The position numbers and the translations under genes are program-made. A stretch of DNA of 64,000 bases from Sporopachydermia quercuum (lineage: Eukaryota; Ascomycota; Sporopachydermiomycetes; Sporopachydermiales; Sporopachydermiaceae): assembly GCA_001599295.1 (NCBI GenBank), contig BCGN01000005.1, positions 1,054,001 to 1,118,000 on the forward strand, given 5' to 3'. Numbering within the stretch: the first letter of the stretch is position 1; every line of letters begins with the position of its first letter. The notes under the pieces were generated by a model. It ran no database searches. It was not told the origin of the DNA and saw only the letters and a program-made list of their open reading frames with translations. Of the stretch, positions 9,184-59,693 are shown piece after piece.

Positions 9184-12175
9184 CACCGACTGGGGATCAT
9201 ATAAAGTAGAATTTTTTATCATTTAACTAATCAACATTTCAATACATAACCTAATTAAAATCTTTCTATCGTTTTTCGAGTTATATTTTACTTCCAATTT
9301 ATGTAGGAAGGACCTATTAACAACAATCCCATTATAAAGAATATTACAAATCAACTTCCTGAAAGAACAAACAATTCAATTTGGTTACTTAAAACATCAA
9401 CGAATAAAGAATGAAGTTATCAATACCTTATCGTTCTATATCACTTTAGAAAATGACAAATAATCACCCTACTGTAAGACCCTCTAGCAAGCGCCTATTG
9501 GCATTCGCAATATTTCAACGCTAGCGTCTACCTCCTCCTATTTTCCAAACTGTACCACCTTCATTCTATGATAAAGTACTTAGGAAGTATCACTAGCCAA
9601 AATTATGAATTTAATTGTCTGGTATAAACTGTATATAAAAGAATGAATGTCATGATTCAAACTTGATATTAAACTTTAAATTTAGTTAGTATTATTCAAG
9701 TATTTAAGATTAACGTTTCGTTTAGTACTTAGCTGGTATAAGAGATGGCCGAGCAATTAAGTATTATTTTCGGGTATCGACAATAACCTTGAGCTTATTA
9801 TTTCCCGATCTTTACCATAATTCCAGTAATTGATATTATATATATATATATATAAATATTTATTAATGTGAAAATAAGAATTTAAAAAACATAAAAATTA
9901 AAAAAAAAATTTAAATTTATAAGTAAGAAAAGTGTTCATAAAAATGTTGAATCAAGGCAAGGAAGGGAACGGAGAGGGTATGGAGAAATTCAAAAGTTTT
10001 ATGAGATAACAGTAATTGGAGTTTATTGCCTTAAAACATTTATAAGCTGCAGGTGCGAATAAGTCTCTTATGTGTTTGATGTGTATGTAGTATGTTCCAT
10101 TGTCATACATTAACAATTTTTGTGGAATCTTCAATTCATCCTTTTTATTAGTTTCGAGAGATCTTGCTTCGGAGTCCCACCATTTTGGTTCGGAAACTCT
10201 CATTAAAACTAGTTTGAAGGTATTAGTGAAACAATGAATAACCAAACCTAATTAACTCAAATGGTCAATATTTAGTGTTTCAGTGTATATATTTTTATAA
10301 CCATGTTCATGGTTTGTTAACCTTTTTCGTTCTTCTCATTACTTTGTTTGGTTTCAAGATATATCCAAACCTTTATTTAGTCTAGATTTGGCAACAATAT
10401 CGTACCAATATATTCAATGAAGTTTAACCTTATATGGAAAGGAATAGAAAAATTCGAATAATAGCTTTGTCTCATTAGTCCTGTGTCCTAAGAGTGTCTG
10501 AAACGACATGCAGGACTACTGGACCTGAATATATTCCCTTTCCTTTTCCCCTTCAACAAATGATACAGCAACCTCATTATCATTGATTCGTTTTTCAATG
10601 GCTATATATCTCTTTTCTTCTTCAAATCCATAAATTTTGTCTCGGTAAAAGCAAGCGAAAATTCAATTTTAGATAAGAAATGTACTTGTCATTCAGGGTA
10701 TAGTATCCTATCTGAAACTTATTTCATCCTGTAATCATCGGTTTGAATATTTACTCCTCTGAAAAATGAAAGGTTTCCCGGTCCCAAATATTATTGAATC
10801 ATTGTTCTCAACTACAAATGGTTCCTGTTATTTTATGTTTATTTACTTACTTTAAGCAATGATCTTAAACTATTCGTTCGACTTACTCATCAAATTACTC
10901 TCCAAGTTGTTTCAAGTATAAGCAGTTCGATTTTCAAACATGTGAGATTCTTCATGATCACTGAAACATTATCGCTCGCATTATGCCGAATGAAAACCAA
11001 TCTTTATGGATAGTATTTATATGTAAAGTAAACCACTGCTTCATCCAACAATATTTTTATGTATATGTACTGTGTTATTTTTTTTCTTCATATAATTGAT
11101 GCATTTTTCCTCGTTCGAATCATTTTCACAGTCTCTCGTTTCATTAGAGTTTGAATAGAACGGTAAAGTTCTGAGTTAAAACTAGTAATCCCAAAATGAA
11201 ACTTAGAAACATTTCAAAGAAATTTTGTAAAATACTTTTACTGATAAAGTAGAACTTGTACAATGTTTGATCCAAACTATTTGATTGTAAGTTATTTGAG
11301 TCTAACACATGAAACAAAAGCTATAGTCTTTTCATGGAAGAAAAAACAAAGAGAAAGCCGTTTCGGTTTACACGACATTATATTCAATCTAGAATCAGAC
11401 TCGAAGGTTATATTAGAAGAGATTAAAAATGGACTCTTGAACCAAAACTTACCAAAATATGTTTGGATAATGCCCGAAAAGAGGCAAAAAAAAAAGGAGA
11501 AGAATAAGTAAAAGTATGAGAGCAAGAGGTGCAATTTTATTTTTAGTACTTCTAATCTGATGGATATACCGAATGTACAGAAGACTATTGAATGGAACTC
11601 TTAATGTTTCGAAGTTTAGGTTTTTTGCAAGATGAACTTCGCATTTGGCATTTCTAGACTTCGTAAACTTCTTGCGTCAATCTTGCATCTAATAGGACAA
11701 CTTTAAAGTATACTCCAATACTCTCACATGTTGAGACATAATGTGAGCACCTTTTTCATTTTTTTTCTTGATTTTTGATTTTCGATTTGATTTCTGACAA
11801 TATTATGATATAATCGACTTTTGAATTTGATGTTTGAACTGATAAAAACAATAAATACTCATCAACAGAAATACCGGAAAAATATCATTAAGAAATAGAT
11901 GAAGTAAGTTATGAAGTATTTTATGGAGACAGCTACTGAACAAATAGCAAAAGCTCCATCAGTAATAACAAGATTTTCTTTGGCTTTCTCGGCGCTGTGA
12001 AGAAAGATAAATTGAGTATTAATGTTGTGTCACATTCATTCATTAGTATTAGAGATATGATTTTATGACAAGAACAACTCTTCGTCAACATAGAGTTATT
12101 CGTGCATCGGAAATGACTTTTGTGGTTATTTGTTGATTAGTTTGAAAGAGAACTTATGAAGTTATAGTGAACAAC
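9184..12175. other. AT-rich spacer, no supported gene
   Basis: Three kilobases between tandem genes. It includes a (TA)9 run at 9,837-9,854 and a poly-A/T tract around 9,890-9,925. Two short frames, about 97 codons at 9,952-10,245 (minus, no ATG at its start) and 82 codons at 11,263-11,511 (plus, ATG), show no recognisable domain. I do not call them genes. Confidence 0.55.
9837..9854. repeat. (TA)9 microsatellite
   Basis: Nine uninterrupted TA units at the centre of a very AT-rich stretch that continues to about 9,925. Confidence 0.9.
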
Positions 12176-13492
12176 ATGTTCAAATCGATAGCTGGATCAA
12201 AACGCACTTTCTCTTCGTTTGTATGTAGGGAAAGCTTTAAGATAGTCAATAATTATCATACTCCAGATTATACAGTAACGCAGCTAAGATTTTTATTGCC
12301 TTTGGATTATCACAAGCCAAAAAGTAGTGAAAGGATTTCACTACCGGGACTTTTAATACGCAGAGGAACATTTAAAGAGGACACTCCAATCAATATTGAC
12401 GCATCAGATCTGTTTCTCTATATTGACACAGGTCCTGGATATAAATCATCCTCATCTTTAGATGATATAAGTCAAATTAGGGATTTATTTTCTGCAAATT
12501 ACGATGTTTTACTTCTGAAGCAAAGAGGATTATATGAAGAATCGCTTTTGAATTTGGAGAATTTGAGCCGCTTACCCTTAGAATCTAGTATCAAACATTT
12601 AAAAGATTTCACACCAAAATCAATTATCAAAGATTGCGAAACAATCAGACAGCTTTTAGTTGGTGATAAACGATGGTCGTTCTATGGAGCGGGGTTTGGC
12701 AGCTTTATTGGCCTTTTATATCTACACTTACACCCGGATAAATTGATAAGAACCATACTTGATGGACATGCACCACATTTTACAGTTCTACCGGAGAAAT
12801 TTTACGAAGCAGCTTTAGAACGTTTATCTGCTCAAAATAAGGAGTATTTCAATAAGTACCCAGGATCAATTCCAAGGGTGAAAGAAATATGCGAATATTT
12901 GGCCCGTAATGAGGTCAAGCTAAGTGATGGGGGTATAATGTCTATTCAAAGGTTTCAAACTATTGGAAGATTACTAGATAAGCAATATGGAGATCAGGTA
13001 TTAGATTTATTTATTGAAAGGATGAAATATGATTTAGAAACTAAAAGGAAGTTAGGTGAAAAAACCCTAGAGAGTATTCGACGCTACACATCAATAGATT
13101 CGTATATGACTGATTTAATAGCAACGGAAGCCATATATGCTGAACTACAAGAGGCTGATCATTTTCTCATGGACAAAGTGAAACGGGAGAATAAGGCATT
13201 CGGTCAGTTCAATTTTAGTTATTTTTCTGAGGGTTTTGAAACGCTTCCCAAAAGACTCCAACCATTATACCTTACAAGAGGAGTTTTGTATGAGGATATG
13301 TTCAAAGATTATGCCGAATTACAGAAAATAAAAGAATTCGCTCAAAGTGAGTTTGGCAGACCAAATTGGTCTTCAATTATGATGTTTTTGCTTTACATGA
13401 TGGAAACAGGAGAAATACAGAAACATAAAATGAGCTTAGGTCGCTTAAACTACAAACGATACGAGTTGAAGAGACGACACAAGAGGTATTAG
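12176..13492 (+). CDS. Proline iminopeptidase-like alpha/beta-hydrolase, probably inactive
   Basis: The 438-aa product resembles fungal prolyl aminopeptidases (peptidase family S33). It has the LPLDY.KP entry segment, YDVLLLKQRG where the family has LLDQRG, and the nucleophile-elbow region WSFYGAGFGSFIGLLYL. A C-terminal LYLTRGVLYEDMFKDY matches the family's AVYVDDMYVDF-like segment. At the elbow the usual G-x-S-x-G serine is Gly (residue 172, codon GGG), so hydrolase activity is unlikely. The first 20 or so residues (MFKSIAGSKRTFSSFVCR) are basic and Ser-rich and look like a mitochondrial presequence. The start is the first ATG; a GTG three codons earlier is ignored. The gene is intact and convergent with IWR1. 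It may have a structural or binding role; this is inferred only from the missing residue. Confidence 0.75.
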   Translation: MFKSIAGSKRTFSSFVCRESFKIVNNYHTPDYTVTQLRFLLPLDYHKPKSSERISLPGLLIRRGTFKEDTPINIDASDLFLYIDTGPGYKSSSSLDDISQIRDLFSANYDVLLLKQRGLYEESLLNLENLSRLPLESSIKHLKDFTPKSIIKDCETIRQLLVGDKRWSFYGAGFGSFIGLLYLHLHPDKLIRTILDGHAPHFTVLPEKFYEAALERLSAQNKEYFNKYPGSIPRVKEICEYLARNEVKLSDGGIMSIQRFQTIGRLLDKQYGDQVLDLFIERMKYDLETKRKLGEKTLESIRRYTSIDSYMTDLIATEAIYAELQEADHFLMDKVKRENKAFGQFNFSYFSEGFETLPKRLQPLYLTRGVLYEDMFKDYAELQKIKEFAQSEFGRPNWSSIMMFLLYMMETGEIQKHKMSLGRLNYKRYELKRRHKRY

Positions 13493-26680: not shown

Positions 26681-28708
26681 ATGGGAGCTCAAACAGCACC
26701 ATCAACTATCAACAAACTGAAACTAAGATGGCCAGATGGACCAAAAAAAAGGAAAAGAGTATATACAGTTGAAGCAAATGTTCCAAATCGTATGAAAATT
26801 CCCAAGAAGAGACTGAAGAATCTGAGGTTTATCAATAGTTCTAATGGTGATATCAGCAGTCCTGTTAAGACACCTGAATCATCAACAGACACTGAAACAA
26901 TCATTTATGAAATTAATGATGTAATTAATGATGTACAGTCTTTCCCTGCATCAAATAAACAAAATCCATCTATTCTCCTACCCGAGTTAACGGCAAGAAG
27001 TCCTAGTGGGTTACTTTCACCTCCTTTGCCTGCTGCTCACCAGTTATTATCAGTAGAAGACGCTTCAAATGCACTTACGGATGGTATTCCAGACTATTTC
27101 GATTTTGATGTTACACCCAGTGAGCTTCATCAAGCTCAATGTGCTGAATTAGCAAGATCCTCACCTTTAGAGAATATTGGAGTTCAAAATCTACATACGG
27201 AGTTTAATATCAATGATACAGCCAATAATGATGGTAGTACTATAGCTAATTCTCCAAATTCCAGAAGCAATAATATGATTGGCGAGTCTCCTCATGAACC
27301 ATCACCTTCAAGTTCACAGCTTATAAAGCAGATTTTATCATATTCTGTTGATTTCAATATTGTCAGAAACAATAGTAACAATAATGAAGACGTTCTAAGT
27401 AATAATAGCAATAGAATAACAGCATTAGATGAATCTGATTCACTCCCTTCCTCATTGCATAATTCTTTACATGTTCTCAACAACAATTCTCCCCCAAAGA
27501 CTTCCTCTAATTCATTAAGGGCTCCTTATATGACTCCTCAAAATTCTTTAGGTCATACGGACAGATTAGATGAATTAGTAGGGAAACTAGATTTTGCTGT
27601 ATGTGTTGTCTTCGGAACAAACATTTCATCCTGTTGCGATAGATTGGTGGCCAACATTTCTCAAGCTTGTAGAGGAAACAGCAAGCTTATTAATATGGTT
27701 CAAGGGATTGTTGATAAGTTAGTCTTGAAGAAAGAAACAAAAAACTATCCTTTGCCAATTGACCTAGACAAGAATGATTTGAAAATGATGGTAAATCCGA
27801 ACTCCTATCAGTTAAATGTTGTTCTTACAACAGTTTTCCTTAATTATTTCACTCAAATTGTTTCTCCTGGTTTAAGGAGAATTCAACCTATATTAAGGCA
27901 AATGCAACTNTTATACTCAACTATTGGAGATCTCGAATTATATCAGAATAACAGCGATATTATGGCGTGGACAAAATTATTTAGTTGGTATGACTCAATA
28001 TCTTCAATGATGATTGGAAGAAGGCTTCAATTACCTAGAAGATATAAAGAAATGGCATTTAATTATATGCCAAAGACCACTGATAGACATGATAGCGATT
28101 TATACGCGAATATCGGCTGTCCCGATAGTTTAGCATCAATCATTATAGATATGGCATATATTTCTGGCGAAATTGGTTTAGAAGCTTTTGAACATCGATC
28201 GAATATCTCACAGGATACTTGGAAACAAATTGAGCACATAATCTTTTTGATTTATACATGGAATGATAATGCAAGACTCGCAAAAGAACCAGATTATAAA
28301 TATGATTTAAGAATGACTATTCATAATTGTTGGAGATGGGGATCATTGATTTACATTTATACCGTGTTTTATAGAGAGAGATGTGATAGTGAGAAAGTTC
28401 GTTGGTTGAGAGATAAAATATTTGAATCTATACGAGAAAATCAAAAGTTGAAGTCTAAACAGCTATTATGGCCGTTCTTTTTGGCATCATGTCAAATTCC
28501 TAGCAATGACATGGAGATTCAAGCCTTTTGTCTGAATGTGGTTGACTCGTGGTATGTGGTGACTAACTGCGCAGATATTTTTAAGACAACAGTTGATATT
28601 CTGTTAGAAGTTTGGAATGATGATAAAGAAACAAACGGGCTGAACAGATGGTGGAGTTGTCTTCAGCAAAAATATTATTCTCTAGGCCTTGAGGTTATGT
28701 TCACTTAA
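26681..28708 (+). CDS. Fungal-type transcription factor without a visible zinc cluster
   Basis: The product is 675 aa from the first ATG. The C-terminal 330 residues (from GKLDFAVCVVFGTNISSC to the end) form a helical domain resembling the fungal-specific transcription factor domain 2 seen in many Zn2Cys6 regulators. The N-terminal 50 residues are very basic (PKKRKRVYTVEANVPNRMKI, PKKRLKNLR) and suit nuclear localisation. The middle is Asn/Ser-rich with runs of N. No Zn2Cys6 motif is present, and none was found in the preceding 1.1 kb. The segment NKLKLRWP near residue 15 recalls the end of a zinc cluster (RLKLxCxWP) without its cysteines. It may be a regulator that has lost its DNA-binding cluster, or one whose first exon I missed. 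One N at a third codon position. Confidence 0.7.
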   Translation: MGAQTAPSTINKLKLRWPDGPKKRKRVYTVEANVPNRMKIPKKRLKNLRFINSSNGDISSPVKTPESSTDTETIIYEINDVINDVQSFPASNKQNPSILLPELTARSPSGLLSPPLPAAHQLLSVEDASNALTDGIPDYFDFDVTPSELHQAQCAELARSSPLENIGVQNLHTEFNINDTANNDGSTIANSPNSRSNNMIGESPHEPSPSSSQLIKQILSYSVDFNIVRNNSNNNEDVLSNNSNRITALDESDSLPSSLHNSLHVLNNNSPPKTSSNSLRAPYMTPQNSLGHTDRLDELVGKLDFAVCVVFGTNISSCCDRLVANISQACRGNSKLINMVQGIVDKLVLKKETKNYPLPIDLDKNDLKMMVNPNSYQLNVVLTTVFLNYFTQIVSPGLRRIQPILRQMQXLYSTIGDLELYQNNSDIMAWTKLFSWYDSISSMMIGRRLQLPRRYKEMAFNYMPKTTDRHDSDLYANIGCPDSLASIIIDMAYISGEIGLEAFEHRSNISQDTWKQIEHIIFLIYTWNDNARLAKEPDYKYDLRMTIHNCWRWGSLIYIYTVFYRERCDSEKVRWLRDKIFESIRENQKLKSKQLLWPFFLASCQIPSNDMEIQAFCLNVVDSWYVVTNCADIFKTTVDILLEVWNDDKETNGLNRWWSCLQQKYYSLGLEVMFT

Positions 28709-44367: not shown

Positions 44368-46720
44368 ATGAATAAAGAAGAGAGTGAAAGAACTGGTCAG
44401 AAGAGAAGTAAGAAATTTACAAGATCAAACACTGGTTGTTTATCATGCAGAAGGAGAAAGTATGTTAACTTTGGTCTTTTATTTTACTTATTTTCATTTA
44501 TTTGTGATAATAAATGAATTATCACTATAGCATAGTATTATTCACTAACGGTGGAAATTAAGGAAGAAATGTGATGGAACTAAGCCAAAATGCGGTGCCT
44601 GTATCAGACTCAACAGAGATTGCATTTACCCTTTTGCCAACCTTCAATGGCAGTTTTATAATGCTCAAACTACGTCCTTAAGTGGATTATCAATACATAA
44701 TGATAAACCAGCAATATCTTCAACGATCTCCCAATCAATAGTAGAACATCCAGCTTCAGATAAAAAGGTATCTAAAACGAATCAAAAATCGAAACTTCAA
44801 ATCAGAAGACCTATATTCAAAATTCATTACCCTAATAAACAACCAACTAGAAAATATGTGTCATCATCGCCTACATTATTACCAGTATCTCCTACAACTG
44901 TTTCAGACACTGGTGTATCACCCAAACATAATACCTTCAATAATGTCAGCATCAATGGTACATCAAATCAGGTGAAAGCATTCTTGACAGTTCCTTTCGT
45001 CGAGTCAGGTCATAACGATCGTCCATTCCTTTCTGCCACCCAGTTTCCCGATACTTACAATAATATTCAAACTAGCCACATTAATAGTCAAAACCACATC
45101 AATAATCACCATTTTGATCTAATATCCAGCCGGTCGCACCTTCTTACAAAGAATAGTATTCACCACACTACGCGATTTGAAAAAGAGTTCGAGGCAGTTG
45201 AAAACTGGAAGTCTTCTTTAAGTTTTGCTGCAGATAATGTGTTTCATGACACAGATGACCTAGATGAATATTACTCATCTTCTGGCTCATCTTCTGGTAA
45301 TGAGATGTTTTCATTCATTTTTCCTGGATTTGGAGAAATCCAACAGTTACTTGATAAACAACCACCTATTGAGAGTCTAAGAAAGCAACATCTTAATAAA
45401 AACAAAAAGCAGGAAAAAGTGAATGGAAGAGATATGATAATCTTTGACAAGAGTATTGATAGTAATAATGACAATAGTAAAGAAGTTTATAATGGTTTCG
45501 ATACTGTGTCATGCTTTATACCTTCAGTTATGGATTTTTCACCGAGAAGAAAATCAGAAGAAGTCACTTATTTATTAGATCCTGAAATCATAAACAACTT
45601 ACTAGGGTCGTTTAAAAGCATAGTAACACCGAATATAAGCACATCATATAAAGCAGAAGAGAACTCATTTGTCAATGTGTATCTTCCACTAGCTTTTTCC
45701 AGTAACGTTGTACTGAAAGCTGTACTTGGGTGGACTGCAACATCGTTATCAACTCGCGGTTATCAATCAAATTTTGATCAAAAGCCAATCAGAGAACTAC
45801 TGGATAGTGTTGAAGAGGAATTAGATGAAATGTGTTTTGATACTCAAATAAGCTCAAATGTTGAGAAAACTGAAGTTTTTCTANCTATAATTTTTATTTT
45901 GGTAGCTGTTGATGTGACGCTAACTGGAAATGGGTCATGGAGAAGTTTACAGTCAATGGCAGGGAAAGTAATCGGACGGCTAAATATTGAAGAATTTTGC
46001 TTGAAACCTTCCAGGAAATGGTTGCTTCAAAATTATTTATATCATGAGCTTACAGGAACGTGTACAACCATAAAAAATTTGAACATTAGTGTGGATAATA
46101 TAAAGAAGGTGTTATCCTCCGATGACATACCAGAATCATATATGGGTATTTGCCGACCTATGTTTAGCATAATTAGTGAGATATTAATTTTATCTAATAG
46201 CAGGTTGAACAATTTATCAGAGAAGGACTTAACTGATTTATTCGCAACTGCTGTTGATATAGAATCTGATATTGAGAGAGTGAAACCTTTACCAGTACCT
46301 TCAGAGGTTTCAGAGAGTAATAATACTGTTGTTCCAGCTAGTTTGAAATTATTTGCTATTCTGAAAAAAGTTGCTTTGCTGATGTTGAGACAATTGGTAT
46401 ACCGTGATGTTTCGCATTCATTGAAAACAGTTATTTTGGTGAGACAGATCATCAACCAGTTACAATTGATTTTTGGCAAAGGTGTCGATAACATGATTCT
46501 TCTACCATTGTTTATTGTCGGGGTTGATGCAATTTCAAAGGAAGATAGATTATGGGTTACTGAGAATATTCAATCATTATATGATAGAGTGAAGGTTGGT
46601 AATGTTCAAACAGCAAAAAGATTACTTAAAGAAATATGGAATTTGAATCCATTAGGACAAAATTATGTCTTCTGGCCCGAAATTGCTGAGAAAACCTGTT
46701 TTGATATCAGTTTGGCCTAG
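44368..46720 (+). CDS. Zn2Cys6 transcription factor
   Basis: Exons 44368-44459 and 44563-46720 join in frame to 749 aa. The intron has GTATGT, CACTAACG and TTAAG|G. The intron interrupts the zinc cluster, which reads C-L-S-C-R-R-R-K | K-K-C-D-G-T-K-P-K-C-G-A-C-I-R-L-N-R-D-C across the junction (C-x2-C-x6-C-x6-C-x2-C-x6-C), at about residues 24-50. A Ser/Asn-rich linker of about 280 residues and a helical C-terminal regulatory domain (from about residue 370) follow, resembling the fungal transcription factor domain 2. It lies 1.56 kb upstream of the biotin-dependent lactam/urea carboxylase-like gene, in the same direction, so it is a candidate local regulator; that is inference from position only. 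Its DNA target is unknown. One N inside. Confidence 0.9.
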
Positions 46721-48277: not shown

Positions 48278-51200
48278 ATGACTATTTCTACCAGCCCTTT
48301 CAAGGCCGTTAAGACTGTCCTTATTGCCAATAGAGGTGAAATTGCATGTCGTATCATCAGAACTTGTAAACAGGTATGTCGCTGTTTTTTTACCCACTGA
48401 CTTATATTTCAATTCGAAAGCCTGAATATTAACAAACTGTAATCTTAGCATGGTCTAAAATCTGTGGTTATTTTCTCGAAAGAAGATGCTGAATCATTAC
48501 ATGTTTCAGAAGCTGATGACAGTATCTTACTGACGGGAACTGGTGTAAGTGCTTATACAGATATAGATCAAGTAGTTCAAGCAGCTAAAATCTCAAATGC
48601 AGATGCTGTCATTCCTGGTTACGGTTTCTTAAGTGAAAATAGAGATTTCGTTGCAGCATTGGAAAAAGAAGGAATTATTTTTGTGGGTCCTGATTCTTCT
48701 TCAGTAGAACAATTCGGTTTAAAGCATTTTGCTAGAGATTTGGCGGTCAATGCTGAAGTTCCGGTGGTACCAGGAAGTGGACTTTTGACCAATAGTAAGG
48801 AAGCTATAAAGTTTGCTGAAAATATTGGTTACCCGATAATCTTGAAAGCTACTGCTGGCGGTGGAGGAATGGGTATGAAAGTTTGTCGATCACCTGAAGA
48901 AGTAGAAGAGGGTGTCAAAGAAGTTCGCAGTAGAGGTTCGTCACTATTCAAAAATGACGGCCTCTTCTTAGAACGGTATGTTGAACATGGTCGTCATATC
49001 GAAGTTCAAGTGTTCGGTAATGGTAAAGGAGATGTTATTGCATTAGGTGAACGTGAATGTTCAGTTCAAAGAAGACATCAAAAGGTTATTGAAGAGACCC
49101 CTTCACCTTTCATTTCTTTACCAAATTATGGAAATGTTGATTTAAGAAGAAAGCTATGTGAATGTGCTATAAAACTTGCTTCTTCCGTTAAGTATAAGTC
49201 TGCGGGTACCATTGAATTTTTAGTTGACGACGATGATGTCTCTTTCTATTTCTTAGAAATGAATACAAGACTGCAAGTAGAGCATGGTATTACTGAAATG
49301 GTTTACAATGTTGATCTTGTGTTCTTAATGCTTTTACAAGCTGATTACGAACTTCAAAATAAAACAGGTATCCCTTTTGACTATCTCAAATCTTACGGTA
49401 AATATGAAAGAGATGGTTATGGTATTCCTGAACCAAATGGTCATAGTATCGAAGTTAGATTATATGCAGAAAATCCATTGCAAAACTTTAGACCTTGTCC
49501 TGGTACGCTTACTCATGTTGACTTTCTTAAAGAGTTATCGGTTCCAAATACAAAGCTGAGAATCGATGGTTGGGTTTCTACTGGTTCAAAGATTACTCCA
49601 TATTTTGACCCTTTGNTAGTAAAGTTGATTGTTTGGAGTGAGACAAGAGATGGTGCAATCAATGGTATGATTGAAGTGCTAACGAAAAGTCTTGTTCAAG
49701 GCCCAACAACTAATGCCGAATATCTTTCTCATATTTTGGATGCTAAGAATTTCCGTACTGGTTATACTTTAACAAGTTTCTTGAACGATTTTGAATTCCT
49801 ACCCTCATTAATGGAATTCCAAATTGCCGGCGCCTATACAACTGTTCAAGATTTACCGGGTAGAATCAAATACAATGGTGGTGTTTTGATGGGAGGACCA
49901 ATGGATAGATTTGCTTTCCAAACTGCTAATGTCATTGTTGGAAATGATTCACATACTGAGGCTTTTGAAATTGTTTTAATGGGGCCAGAGATTAAATTTC
50001 ATTCCCCCGCCACTATTTCTTTGTGTGGTGGTAATTTTGCATTCTCAATCAATGGTAAAGAAGCTCCTTTATGGTCAGCGATCAAAGTTCCAGCTGGTTC
50101 CACTGTTAAAATCGGCGATTTATTATCTGGTGTTGCAGGAAAATGTTACTTGGCAGTTAAAGGTGGTTTACCAAGTGTTGCTTACTACCTAGATTCCAAA
50201 GCCACAAGTCCAACCGTTAGTATTGGCGGTCATCAAGGAGGTCCAATTAGAGCTGGTGATTGTTTAGCACTTGCTCAACATGATCCCGTTGATAGCATCG
50301 AGGTTGATTATATTCTACCAAAGCTTGCAAGGCCAGATTACGATTTTGATGACGATACATTTATTTGGACGATTAGATGTCTCAATGGTCCACATAATAC
50401 CCCAGAAATTATGGGAGAAGAAGGACATAAAACACTATTTGAAACAATTTGGAAGATGAATATGAATTCCAATAGAGGTTCCATTACTCTGGACGGTCCA
50501 AAAGTTCCATTTGCTAGACCTGATGGTAGAGATGGTGGTAATCATCCTGCAAATATTATTGAATATGTTTATCCTCCGTATGGGGTTAGTACTGTTGGTG
50601 ATATGAATGTGATTTCCGCTGCTGATGGTATCACCTTAAGTGGATTTTTAAGTCCTATTGTTCCAATTGAAGCAGATTGGTGGAAAGTCGGTCAAGCAAA
50701 GGTAAGCTCTCAAATTAAATTTGAACATATTACTTATCATGATGCTCTTAAATTGAGAAAGAAACGTAAACAATATATTCAATTTTTGGCAACCCGTCCT
50801 TCTGAACTTGAAGCTAGGAAATCACCATTTAATGATGAGCTTGATACTTATGAAGACGTCACTTTTGACACAATTCTTTATCTCCGCGAGGCAAATGATG
50901 AATTACCATATACAATGTTCAGACAAGCCGGTGAGAAGATGATTCAAATCGACTATGATTTAGAAAAATTCAATCTGGCAAGTGTTGCAAGACAATATTT
51001 ACTGAATATTGAACTAGAGAAACTGAAGCAAAGTAATGAAACATTTGCTAAAGGTGTTTATAGAATGGAAACATCAAATGGTTGTTTGGCTATTGCATTC
51101 GAACCGGAGATCATTTCAAGACATGAATTGATAGAGATTGTGAAGCAAGTTGAAGCAACACTCCCACCAACTAATGAAATGAAAGTACCATCAAGAGTCT

Positions 51201-52174
51201 TCAGATTACCATTGTGCATTGAACATCCAGCAGTTATTGATTGCTGGGAAAGATATATGAATTCTATTAGACCAACAGCGGCATATTTGCCAAATAATCG
51301 TGAATATTTGATGAAATCCTCATTGATTGATACATTTGAAGAATTCAAATCAAGAGTTTATGGTCCAATGCAAGTTGTTACTGCAGTTTCTTTTATTTGC
51401 GCAACACCCTTACTGGTTTATAAAGATCCCAGACTTTCATTCAAGAGTGGTAAATATAATCCATCAAGACATTATACACCTGCTGGTGCCGTTGGTACTG
51501 GTAGTATATCTCAAAGTATTCATCCAATTGACACTCCTGGTGGTTACATGATTTGGGGTTTAACATTACCAAGTTTCTTATGGAACACTTTTGCAAGACT
51601 AGATCAATTCAAACAATTCGGAACTAACCCATGGTATCTCCAAACTTTTGATCAAATTCAATGGTACGAGGTAACTGCTGATGAATTAGATGATTTAGAG
51701 AATCAAATGAAAACCAATAAGTTCATTGTGAAACCTGAAGAGGTCACATTTGATTTTACTGAATATTCCCAGTTTATCGAAACAATTGTAGACGAAGTCA
51801 AAGAAATCAGAGCTAAGCAAGATATTATGGGTGCCCAACTGAAAAAGGAAGATGATTTGCTCAAAGCAGAATGGGAAGCCGAAAAGGCAGCGAGAAAAGC
51901 AGCGAAAGGTGCCGCAACTGAAGGATTAGACGATAATTATCTTAAGTGTGAATCAACAATGACAGCAACAGTTTTCAAGATTAATTTAGCAAAAGGTGAT
52001 AAGTTTAGGCCTGATGATCCTGTTATTATTCTCGAAGCCATGAAAACTGAAATTCCAATCAGAATTCAGAACGCTGATCCTGATGGTGAATATGAAGTCA
52101 AAGAGATTCTGGTTGACGAGAAGGATATTGTCAATTCTGGACAACCAATATTTGTTTATGATAAGGTAAATTGA
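48278..52174 (+). CDS. Stand-alone urea-carboxylase-like biotin enzyme (LamA candidate)
   Basis: Exons 48278-48373 and 48449-52174 join in phase to 1273 aa (intron GTATGT...CTTAG). Order: biotin carboxylase (residues about 12-460; ANRGEIACRII, ATP-grasp GGGGMGMKV near 170, NTRLQVEH near 305); a KipA/PxpC-like (AHS2) domain about 489-800 (GAYTTVQDLPGR, GGPMDRFAFQTANVIVGN); a KipI/PxpB-like (AHS1) domain about 850-1123 (FRQAGEKMIQIDYD, RPTAAYLPNNREYL, KYNPSRHYTPAGAVGTG); and a biotinyl domain about 1200-1273 with EAMKTE, biotin-lysine at residue 1231. This is the carboxylase half of fungal urea amidolyase (Dur1,2). The amidase (allophanate hydrolase) half is absent, and the protein starts cleanly at the biotin carboxylase. 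With the convergent LamB-type gene it resembles the lactam-utilisation system rather than ureolysis. The substrate is not proven; a urea carboxylase working with a separate hydrolase remains possible. Confidence 0.85.
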
Positions 52175-53498
52175 TCAATAGTGATAATATATATTAATAA
52201 TAATTAAAGGGTTTTCAGTGAACTGTGTATTTGTTAATTAGTGATAATAGATTGTAGCGGAAGCTGTCTTTCTTTTTCAAGGTAAGTGTTAGGTCAAACT
52301 TCTAATGAGCCACATAACATATTCAGTTGTTCCAATCGTTAGCAATCATTAGCAACTCATTAGAATGATCGCAATAAATACCTGGTTCACATTTTCCTTC
52401 CGTTCAATTGTTTTTCTCCTGTCTTTGAATCATCTTCAACTGGATCTGATCTAAAATGTTGAAAATTCATCATTTTCTCATATGTTCATTCTATTGGAAT
52501 AGGTTCTATTATGGGGTATAAAAATCTATCAGGAGGTTTTCTCCTCTATTATATAATCACAGAGGAATAGATGATAGGATACCTGTTGCATTTATGGGAA
52601 GGATTATTGTTCAGAATTTATTGAAAGATATTCTTTCTATTCAATATTTCAATTGAAGCAAAAGGACTTCGGGTTAGTTCATGACTCAATTTCTACAATA
52701 TAAGAAAGACCTCCCTACATGACTCGCGCTGTTGACAAAGCAATGATTATCCAATCAGTCAATCAATCAAATGATCGAGAAGTCTCAATAGTTATTCAAA
52801 CATCGCGATTCCATTAAATATAATAATAAATAAATATCAAGAATGATTAGACTTTTCTCTCGACAAACTCAAGGAAACAACAAAGAAAAACAATGTTGAC
52901 ACTCTTGTTTTTGCAGTATTATTTTTTTCAGTGCATATGAAAGAGTGAATTTTTCACCTCACCGGTTTTTTCATCTAATAACTAAAAGTTGGAAATCAAG
53001 ATAAATCTTCATGTATTCTCACCGTAAATTCTTTAATAGTAAGTTTGTGATTTAACAATTGTAACCGCGAATCAAATCTTCGAGAAAAATAGTAATAATA
53101 TGGAATTGAAATTGTTGTCTTCTTCAGTTAGAACTAGAAATGAAAGAGGAAAATTGTCCCACTACATGCAATTCACTGGATCTGGTTGTGTTCAGAGTTC
53201 CAATGCTTTGTTTAGAAATGTTTAAAATTATTATCAAAACAATGAAAGTAAACATTCTAGCATAGTTATTTTGATATTGATGTATATAGAGCAATTAGGA
53301 ATAGTTATTGTCAAAAGGTTTTTCTATACCAACTATTCATTTCACATTACATTTCCAAGTGGAATTAATTGCCTTATTCTTGGTACGATGAGTCGGTCAA
53401 CAATAATGATGAATACNGCTGCTACAATTACAACAGAAAGAAATGATTATGATTAAATAACAATTAAATAGCAATTAAAATATTATTTATTTTGATTC
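52175..53498. other. Intergenic between two convergent genes
   Basis: About 1.3 kb of AT-rich DNA, long for a convergent spacer in a yeast. No frame above about 60 codons and no recognisable element. Confidence 0.5.
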
Positions 53499-54260
53499 TT
53501 ATTTCAATCCCTTCATACTATTGACTTCATCAAGTATTTTCCTTGCTGTCTTTATATTATCTAAAGCACCGGGAAGATCTGAATGAATACATAACGAGAA
53601 AGGCTTACCTTTGAAATTGAGAGAAATTTCCTTACCAGTATTACAAATGATTTTATCCTCTAAAGCACATCTTCTTAGTTGCTCTCCAATATCTTCGGGG
53701 GTTTTTGGAGTCCAATTACCAACAGGTGCTAACTCACCATTTTCTGCCCAATCAATGTCTGCATATAATTCTTCCAAGAACTCAACTCCAGCATCATCAC
53801 ATCTCTTCTTATATCTTTCGCTTCTGGCACCTACTAAAGGAACTTTTAAATCCTTTGCTGCTCTAATTGCGGCATCCATTACATCTTGATTTGTCATGAT
53901 GTAGAAGAATAATTGTCCATGAGGTTTTATAAACTCAAGTTTCATTCCTTCAATTTCTAGGAATGCCTTTAGGGCACCTGCTTGGTAGACAATCAAATCA
54001 TAGATTTCTGCCGCTGGAATTGCCATTGCCCTTCTACCAAAACCCTTGATATCAGGTAAACCAGGGTGAGCACCAACTTTCACACCGTGCTTCTTTGCCA
54101 ATTTCACTGTTTGTTTGATAATAGTGTGATCACCTGCATGAAAACCACAAGCAATATTGGCACAGTCAATGTATGGCATAATATCTTCATCAGGACCTGT
54201 CTTCCATCTTCCGAAACCTTCACCCATATCACAGTTTAACTCATACTTTGTGTAACCCAT
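53499..54260 (-). CDS. LamB/YcsF family protein (5-oxoprolinase subunit A type)
   Basis: The product is 253 aa from the ATG at 54,260. It starts YELNCDMGEGFGRWKTGPDEDIMPYIDCANIACGFHAGD, the signature of the LamB/YcsF (PxpA) family, followed by VKVGAHPGLPDIKGFGRR, GALKAFLEIEG and FIKPHGQLFFYIM. Full length (bacterial members are about 250 aa). Bacterial PxpA with PxpB and PxpC forms the ATP-dependent prokaryotic-type 5-oxoprolinase. In Aspergillus nidulans lamB is needed to use 2-pyrrolidinone and similar lactams as nitrogen source. The PxpB and PxpC equivalents are the two middle domains of the convergent gene at 48-52 kb, so the two products probably act together. The true start is the internal ATG; the frame runs 9 codons further without one. 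No targeting signal seen. Confidence 0.92.
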   Translation of the reverse strand: MGYTKYELNCDMGEGFGRWKTGPDEDIMPYIDCANIACGFHAGDHTIIKQTVKLAKKHGVKVGAHPGLPDIKGFGRRAMAIPAAEIYDLIVYQAGALKAFLEIEGMKLEFIKPHGQLFFYIMTNQDVMDAAIRAAKDLKVPLVGARSERYKKRCDDAGVEFLEELYADIDWAENGELAPVGNWTPKTPEDIGEQLRRCALEDKIICNTGKEISLNFKGKPFSLCIHSDLPGALDNIKTARKILDEVNSMKGLK

Positions 54261-59207: not shown

Positions 59208-59693
59208 TTACTCAGCAGCTTTAATAGCTTCAACCTGAGTAACAAGATAGTCGATATCCTTTCTCCAAAGGATCAAGCCTTCTTCTCCACCTTCCTCCCA
59301 TAATTCATACATCTCAGACTTTTTCGAGAGAACAATCTTCAGTCCACGAAGTAACTTATCTTTAGCTGCATAGACAGTTTTTGCATACTCCTTGTCTGAA
59401 GTTTTAACTTGCTCAATCCAGTCATTCAACTTCGAGTCTGTCCCTCTATAGCTAATTTCCTCTGTGGAAGACTTATCTAATACTGATAAAACCAAAAAAG
59501 GGACCACAGTTAGGTCAGCACAATCATCTAGCTCAAAATACTCCTTTGAATCGGCCGATTGATCTATTATCTTTTCCAATGATACAAACCATCCTTTCTC
59601 CCCTTCAATATCGATTTTGCTTTGGTCAATAAGACTATGAATCGAGTCTAAAGCAGCGTCGTTTTCAAATAATCCATANCCCCAGGCTCCCAT
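59208..59693 (-). CDS. DUF4259-family protein, bacterial-type
   Basis: The product is 161 aa. The first residues MGAW-x-YGLFENDAALDSI match the start that defines DUF4259 (MGAWGYGPFDNDDAADW in bacteria); the x is an N at a third codon position (GGN, Gly). The rest also fits: a central segment (FELDDCADLTVVPFLVLSVL) and a C-terminal helix with ELWEEGGEEGLILWRKDI, where the family has LWxE.....W. No function is established for the family, which is common in bacteria and rare in yeasts. The gene is intronless, with codon use like its neighbours. A horizontal origin is possible, but the sequence alone cannot show it. Confidence 0.8.
   Translation of the reverse strand: MGAWXYGLFENDAALDSIHSLIDQSKIDIEGEKGWFVSLEKIIDQSADSKEYFELDDCADLTVVPFLVLSVLDKSSTEEISYRGTDSKLNDWIEQVKTSDKEYAKTVYAAKDKLLRGLKIVLSKKSEMYELWEEGGEEGLILWRKDIDYLVTQVEAIKAAE

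Follow-up and report, generated by a model that had tools for sequence, protein, structure and literature searches.

Layout of the gene pair

Within the 64,000-nucleotide stretch of contig BCGN01000005.1 analyzed here (the window), a gene for a LamA-like fused carboxylase lies next to a gene for a LamB/YcsF protein; the two products are called LamA and LamB below. The LamA-like gene consists of two exons on the forward strand (48278-52174), begins with an ATG at 48278 and encodes 1273 amino acids (aa) after splicing, with a single terminal stop. The two genes are convergent with 1.3 kb between them, and this gap contains no stop-to-stop frame longer than 76 aa. The pair comprises the following features:

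48278..48373, forward strand: LamA-like exon 1, residues 1-32, with the ATG at 48278; the splice leaves one open 1273-aa frame
48374..48448, forward strand: LamA-like intron, 75 nt, GTATGT...TTAG, with the frame restored
48449..52174, forward strand: LamA-like exon 2, with biotin carboxylase, CT_A_B (KipA), CT_C_D (KipI) and biotinyl domain, from Pfam and residue mapping
53499..54260, reverse strand: LamB/YcsF protein, 253 aa; PF03746 at residues 7-243, E 1.2e-78

In LamA, Pfam places Biotin_carb_N at residues 11-116, CPSase_L_D2 at 126-327 and Biotin_carb_C at 367-478, followed by CT_A_B at 510-791 (E 9e-61), CT_C_D at 856-1073 (E 6e-9) and Biotin_lipoyl at 1205-1268, where the biotinyl motif MKT occupies residues 1230-1232. 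The same scan found no amidase domain in LamA, and the fused amidase of Dur1,2 is thus missing. The closest solved structures are 3va7 (KLLA0E08119p, E 1.9e-225) and 5i8i (urea amidolyase). LamB scores 264.5 bits for PF03746 (cut-off 22), which places it in the LamB/YcsF family, and keeps 22 of the 23 residues that are invariant across both YcsF types compared below. An earlier note on this DNA, made from the letters alone, had described a complete, amidase-less carboxylase half of a urea amidolyase and a full-length LamB/YcsF gene convergent to it; both descriptions hold, with exact coordinates and all of the Pfam domains present. Chance can be excluded for the pair, since the domain order sits in one spliced frame and is accompanied by these E-values. 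An ambiguous N at 49616 leaves one residue of LamA as X. A CTG codon encodes residue 307, within NTRLQVEH, where aligned relatives have L, V or I; decoding of CTG as serine is therefore unlikely.

Diagnostic residues of the carboxyltransferase

Residue positions follow the K. lactis numbering, which was mapped onto LamA through PDB 3va7. The trees and residue counts took in 34 of the 85 prokaryotic urea and guanidine carboxylases (UC and GC) at hand. The general base of the K. lactis carboxyltransferase (CT) is most likely K1605 (PMC5770610), which corresponds to K1034 of LamA, in CT_C_D. A lysine is found at this position in all 35 UC/GC, in 26/26 KipI proteins of the biotin type and in the three KipI proteins of L134-like operons, and an arginine in 39 of 40 PxpB proteins of the ATP type (one gap) and in 3/3 PxpB proteins that adjoin biotin carboxylase (BC) genes.

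Guanidine carboxylase requires Asp at position 1584, and Asp at 1330 separates it from urea carboxylase (PMC11410670), which has Asn at this deciding site (PMC12186494). Position 1584 is Asp in 35/35 UC/GC and Phe (F1014) in LamA. Phe also occupies it in all 26 biotin-type KipI proteins and in 39/40 PxpB (the remaining one has Tyr); the three PxpB proteins adjoining BC genes have Ser, Ser and Phe. At 1330 LamA has Ser746, in CT_A_B, which is neither the Asn of urea carboxylase nor the Asp of guanidine carboxylase. With S746 and F1014, LamA lacks the urea carboxylase combination (Asn 1330, Asp 1584) as well as the two Asp residues of guanidine carboxylase, and with K1034 it lacks the arginine of PxpB. 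What it has in common with the biotin-type YcsF systems are the BC and biotinyl parts, a KipI part with both Lys and Phe, and a LamB partner that falls in the biotin-type YcsF group. The combination of K1034 and F1014 therefore suggests a carboxylating site joined with the pocket of a YcsF partner.

The informative value of position 1330 was controlled on a wider set, covering all 80 scanned loci (the best 80 of 587 prokaryotic LamA relatives) and five plasmid proteins. Asn occurs in 52 and Asp in 28 of those best 80, and UAAP1, which we take to be a carboxyguanidine deiminase subunit, is a neighbor in 25/28 Asp loci versus 1/52 Asn loci. Allophanate hydrolase accompanies 65 of these 80 relatives; it is missing from the stretch in the other 15, several of which are short or cut loci. 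YcsF beside the fused carboxylase was seen in none of the best 80 of 587 within the stretches read. Among the plasmid proteins, a 'urea carboxylase' (L010, 4639-8244) has Asp at 1330 and lies beside UAAP1/2, with no allophanate hydrolase annotated in its stretch; by the published criterion for 1330 it is probably a guanidine carboxylase.

These data bear on the view that LamA is a true urea carboxylase whose allophanate passes to a separate hydrolase elsewhere in the genome, the YcsF gene being an unrelated neighbor. The best solved relatives of LamA are indeed urea carboxylase or amidolyase with identical domain order, and its fungal homologs carry the name urea carboxylase (PMC3073912). The replacement of D1584 by Phe and of the residue at 1330 by Ser speaks against that view, and so does the pattern of conservation: among the columns common to at least 97% of the 35 UC/GC, LamA keeps 106/115 in BC, and 52/89 and 37/79 in the two CT domains, whereas the corresponding fractions for the K. 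lactis enzyme, with itself excluded from the set, are 0.96 (BC), 0.90 and 0.76 (CT domains). For the NCBIfam model urea_carbox (TIGR02712), LamA reaches 1117.3 bits, below the cut-off of 1303.85, a score that stands without a known-UC control. The linkage to YcsF in other fungi (PMC8016842, PMC8675399) and the biotin-type LamB argue in the same direction.

Prokaryotic YcsF loci

Seven alphaproteobacterial plasmid loci (L001, L002, L003, L005, L095, L097 and L098) contain ycsF together with BCCP, BC, KipI and KipA genes, with KipI/KipA on the opposite strand in L003; two archaeal plasmid loci (L004, L096) hold most of these parts within the stretch. Annotations of such biotin-type loci name PxpA or LamB, together with 'acetyl-CoA carboxylase' and carboxyltransferase genes, and the recurrent neighbors of the bacterial ones, by eye, are regulator- and transporter-like open reading frames (ORFs). 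In L002, a gene of the hydantoinase/oxoprolinase family (11669-12714) follows 3' of the biotin-type ycsF operon, past a helix-turn-helix gene.

Across 289 alphaproteobacterial genomes, YcsF occurs in 61. PF03746 was matched at 72 places, five of which were left out as fragments or weak matches (G112 twice, G181 twice, G081), giving 67 loci. KipI carries the lysine (K-type) in 17 loci, which include BC in 16/17 and BCCP in 17/17, the sole K-type locus without BC (L159) lying on a short contig. PxpB is present in 40 of the 67 loci, and BC and BCCP in 1/40 each. The loci L092, L093 and L131 are of the PxpABC type and carry BC and BCCP genes next to a PxpB with Arg, so that YcsF can have biotin genes nearby without a K-type KipI.

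A further arrangement, ycsF–BC–KipI–KipA–BCCP, is found in L134, L167, L173 and L176, where the sequence around the lysine is more UC-like. In the order to which L134 belongs, 51 PF03746 places were located in 22 genomes and 20 loci were taken; three have the full gene set, three have KipI and KipA without BC, and one matches KipI weakly at the edge of the locus. The loci L182 (9630-12337), L185 (9627-12340) and L186 (7372-10350) carry YcsF and KipI/KipA relatives with no BC in view, and with K/A, L/F and L/F at positions 1605/1584 they break the residue rule. In PDB entry 9yx5, the alpha3 subunit of a biotin-dependent acyl-CoA carboxylase appears alongside 'allophanate hydrolase subunit 1 and 2', which are relatives of PxpB/PxpC.

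Placement of LamB and LamA in the trees

In the careful 63-row YcsF tree, LamB and all 25 biotin-type YcsF proteins lie on one side, away from PxpA, with support of 100/99. This tree omits ten rows without a KipI neighbor and six divergent PxpA-type rows of the quick 79-row tree, in which the same side is recovered (99*) and includes six of the ten KipI-less rows. LamB has four of five discriminating residues in the biotin-type state and 0/5 in the PxpA-type state, and the YcsF most like it is that of L134 (43%).

The side on which LamB falls is also informative about a second alternative, that the pair is a fungal PxpABC-like 5-oxoprolinase opening 5-oxoproline in an ATP-dependent manner, its biotin module being a vestige or an accessory. 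YcsF, KipI and KipA are the PxpA, PxpB and PxpC families, and some prokaryotic PxpABC loci do contain BC and BCCP genes (L092, L093 and L131). In these three, PxpB has Arg at the position where LamA has Lys; LamB groups with the biotin-type YcsF proteins; and LamA retains all BC and biotinyl domains, with the 106/115 conserved BC columns given above. We consider this alternative very unlikely.

For LamA, the best match among 58 proteins is L023 with 42.5% identity; K. lactis ranks 30th of 58 with 38.9%, and identity to the best split locus, L134, is 34.5%. The careful 27-row tree places LamA beside the entire UC/GC clade, K. lactis included, with support of 93/89. Constraining LamA to group with K. 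lactis costs 12.3 log units and is not rejected by the approximately unbiased (AU) test (p 0.163). The separation of LamA from Dur1,2, raised in the earlier note, is thus favored, not proven: the tree supports it, and the AU test does not reject the grouping with K. lactis. The quick 59-row tree is not relied on for the question of whether LamA is a sister of Dur1,2, because its search missed a better-scoring tree (LamA with K. lactis scored 45.75 higher, p-AU 0.917). A grouping of LamA with the L134 operon alone was rejected (p 5.5e-5). Trees of the single CT domains, which included 14 of the 40 PxpB-type loci and three references, do not reject LamA with the split loci (p 0.472 and 0.271). 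For the urea carboxylase explanation, the position of LamA adjoining the UC/GC clade and the fact that a grouping with K. lactis is not rejected are points in favor; weighed against the residues, the eroded CT columns and the biotin-type LamB, it seems to us barely credible.

Proposed function and its implications

Taken together, the domain set, the predicted catalytic lysine, the loss of the Asp of urea and guanidine carboxylases and the biotin-type LamB make it likely that the two proteins work as one fungal LamA/LamB-like system, dependent on biotin and ATP, that opens lactams as a source of nitrogen. K1034, F1014 and the biotin-type LamB argue that the pair is most likely distinct both from urea carboxylases and from the ordinary 5-oxoprolinase of the PxpABC type. 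N-carboxylation of a lactam, hydrolysis by LamB and the substrate are inferred. The BC part of LamA would use ATP and bicarbonate to form carboxybiotin, and the KipA/KipI carboxyltransferase, with K1034 as general base, would transfer CO2 to the amide nitrogen of the lactam. Hydrolysis of this activated ring by LamB would yield an omega-amino acid whose N-carboxylate is lost by decarboxylation; LamB would thereby act at the step performed by allophanate hydrolase in the urea carboxylase pathway. With 2-pyrrolidinone as substrate, the product would be 4-aminobutyrate (GABA).

The earlier note had proposed one enzyme system that opens a cyclic amide with a carboxylation step. The residues, trees and linkage support this core of the proposal as most likely; 5-oxoproline opening through PxpABC, which it had included, is unsupported, because PxpB has Arg where LamA has Lys and LamB lies outside the PxpA side. 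The linkage between the carboxylase and YcsF families, which the earlier note had left to be sought elsewhere, exists in A. nidulans lamA/lamB (PMC8016842), in a Trichoderma segment (PMC8675399) and in the prokaryotic ycsF/BCCP/BC/KipI/KipA loci.

The substrate is suggested by analogy with A. nidulans. The lamA/lamB system is known from genetics of 1989, and the lactam substrate in A. nidulans is 2-pyrrolidinone. In that fungus AmdR controls lamA, lamB, gatA and gabA together, in lactam catabolism (PMC8016842), and because of this joint control with gatA and gabA a lactam is the proposed substrate, with 2-pyrrolidinone favored. A third alternative keeps the carboxylation chemistry and assigns it to another cyclic amide or imide, such as caprolactam, valerolactam, a hydantoin-like compound or a pyrimidine breakdown product. 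The regulator- and transporter-like neighbors, the lack of GabT and GabD genes at the alphaproteobacterial loci and the hydantoinase/oxoprolinase gene of L002 are in keeping with it; the shared control of A. nidulans lamA/lamB with GABA genes counts against it, and we regard it as possible, if rather unlikely. A GABA neighborhood was considered as a substrate clue and dropped: L097 has a gene for 4-aminobutyrate transaminase, truncated by the limits of the stretch, and L098 a succinate-semialdehyde dehydrogenase gene and a cut carbonic-anhydrase gene, and these neighbors are not used as evidence because 0/67 loci had GabT or GabD.

Several observations weigh against the lactam-opening system proposed here. 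GabT and GabD, at 40% identity or more, were found at none of the 67 alphaproteobacterial YcsF loci within about 9.5 kb around them (less at contig ends), and GABA-related neighbors occur in two of the seven plasmid loci, L002 having its hydantoinase/oxoprolinase gene instead. At position 1330, where LamA has Ser, Gln is found in 23/24 of the biotin-type proteins and 42/42 of those on the PxpC side, and the LamA pocket is therefore not identical to theirs. Fused LamA is nearer to UC than to the split operons, which lie outside the branch uniting UC and LamA (100/99). The LamB branch is long, and with LamB moved to the PxpA side of the biotin group the tree is not rejected by the AU test (p 0.514), a value that would also fit LamB on the stem. 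Finally, KipI is missing from ten of the 67 alphaproteobacterial YcsF loci and YcsF is alone in 13/20 loci of the order of L134; many bacterial YcsF genes stand alone.

What is new here is the evidence on mechanism, in that F1014 and S746 would tell the pair from urea carboxylase and K1034 from PxpABC. More broadly, we hypothesize a third class of biotin-dependent N-carboxylases beside the urea and guanidine carboxylases, namely lactam N-carboxylases that activate the ring for a YcsF hydrolase and are marked by Lys 1605 and Phe 1584. Bacteria and archaea would encode them in separate genes and fungi as a single fused protein, many fungal 'urea carboxylases' would belong to them, and YcsF would work in two modes, with carboxylation by a biotin system or with ATP-type PxpBC. 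The case for this class we judge to be evenly balanced. If it is true, the lamA/lamB reaction becomes directly testable as carboxylation of the lactam nitrogen followed by hydrolysis, the annotation of fungal 'urea carboxylases' may have to be revised, and prokaryotic '5-oxoprolinase subunit A' and 'acetyl-CoA carboxylase' genes gain a likely joint function. The two residues would provide a simple rule for separating the classes.

Genomic surroundings

Directly upstream of the LamA-like gene, on the same strand, lies a transcription-factor gene:

44368..46720, forward strand: Zn2Cys6 transcription factor, 749 aa, with an intron at 44460-44562

After splicing, the factor contains the motif CX2CX6CX6CX2CX6C, and its main ORF matches PF11951 (Fungal_trans_2, E 8e-50). 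The intron is located inside the Zn2Cys6 motif, and its acceptor is seemingly AAG, preceded by CTAAC, which resembles a branch site; other in-frame acceptors are conceivable. Judged by adjacency, the factor is a possible regulator of the pair. The three intergenic regions beside LamA and LamB contain neither CGG-N(0-14)-CCG nor CCG-N(0-14)-CGG sites. Another Fungal_trans_2 ORF lies at 26681-28708 on the forward strand, with no zinc-cluster family reported in that ORF.

The window is fungal. RRS1, the gene adjoining LamB, gives 242 bits with 3jct but 117 with 7ozs, and 144 with an Aspergillus protein; VPS18, also in the window, gives the opposite picture, at 575 bits with 8dit versus 300 with PEP3 of 7zu0. 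We take 3jct and 7zu0 to be from S. cerevisiae and 7ozs and 8dit from Chaetomium, and a budding yeast is a likely, though unproven, source. A 161-aa DUF4259 protein is encoded at 59208-59693 on the reverse strand (Pfam E 1.4e-18). A Pfam scan of 16 proteins from the window found no carboxyguanidine deiminase family, and Rfam and tRNA scans gave no matches.

Comparison with known systems

The locus has the layout that defines LamA/LamB, a UC-like fused carboxylase without amidase adjoining a LamB/YcsF gene, and it is probably another case of this known kind, in a probable budding yeast. The lamA and lamB genes of A. nidulans have the same make-up, an amidase-less UC-like protein and LamB/YcsF, a likeness judged from gene make-up. 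The pair described here differs in being convergent, whereas the A. nidulans arrangement is presumably divergent, and in its probable budding-yeast host. The A. nidulans urea carboxylase of 1,241 aa is, we presume, LamA. The length of that protein is given by Strope et al. 2011 (PMC3073912), who report that many Pezizomycotina and Basidiomycota, and none of the Saccharomycetes that they studied, have the amidase-less form; its presence in a budding yeast would widen this range. A term search of the text of PMC3073912 found no lamA, lamB or lactam.

In several Trichoderma, urea-carboxylase and LamB genes lie in one segment, and the authors of that 2021 article leave the urea role open (PMC8675399). 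That segment likewise includes a transcription-factor gene; it differs in its extra major facilitator superfamily and NADPH-dehydrogenase genes and in that its factor is of the C2H2 kind. Our data suggest that the Trichoderma genes would serve lactams, if their proteins share the LamA residues. Besides this article, the titles and abstract openings listed by searches of open-licence PMC contained nothing on YcsF with a biotin carboxylase or on the mechanism of LamA.

The prokaryotic ycsF, BCCP, BC, KipI and KipA loci have the same parts, Lys and Phe at the diagnostic positions and a YcsF that groups with LamB; they differ from the fungal pair in their separate genes, in the Gln at 1330 (23/24) and in carboxylase parts that lie outside the UC and LamA branch. 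Dur1,2 and urea carboxylase (K. lactis 3va7) share with LamA the domain order, BC, the biotinyl domain, the CT lysine and 38.9% identity, whereas LamA lacks the amidase, has D1584 and N1330 replaced and has a YcsF neighbor. Guanidine carboxylase belongs to the same family and has the same CT lysine, with D1584 and D1330 missing in LamA. The PxpABC 5-oxoprolinase, in turn, has the YcsF, KipI and KipA families and Phe at 1584 in common with the pair, and differs in usually lacking biotin genes (1/40 loci) and in having Arg in place of the CT lysine.

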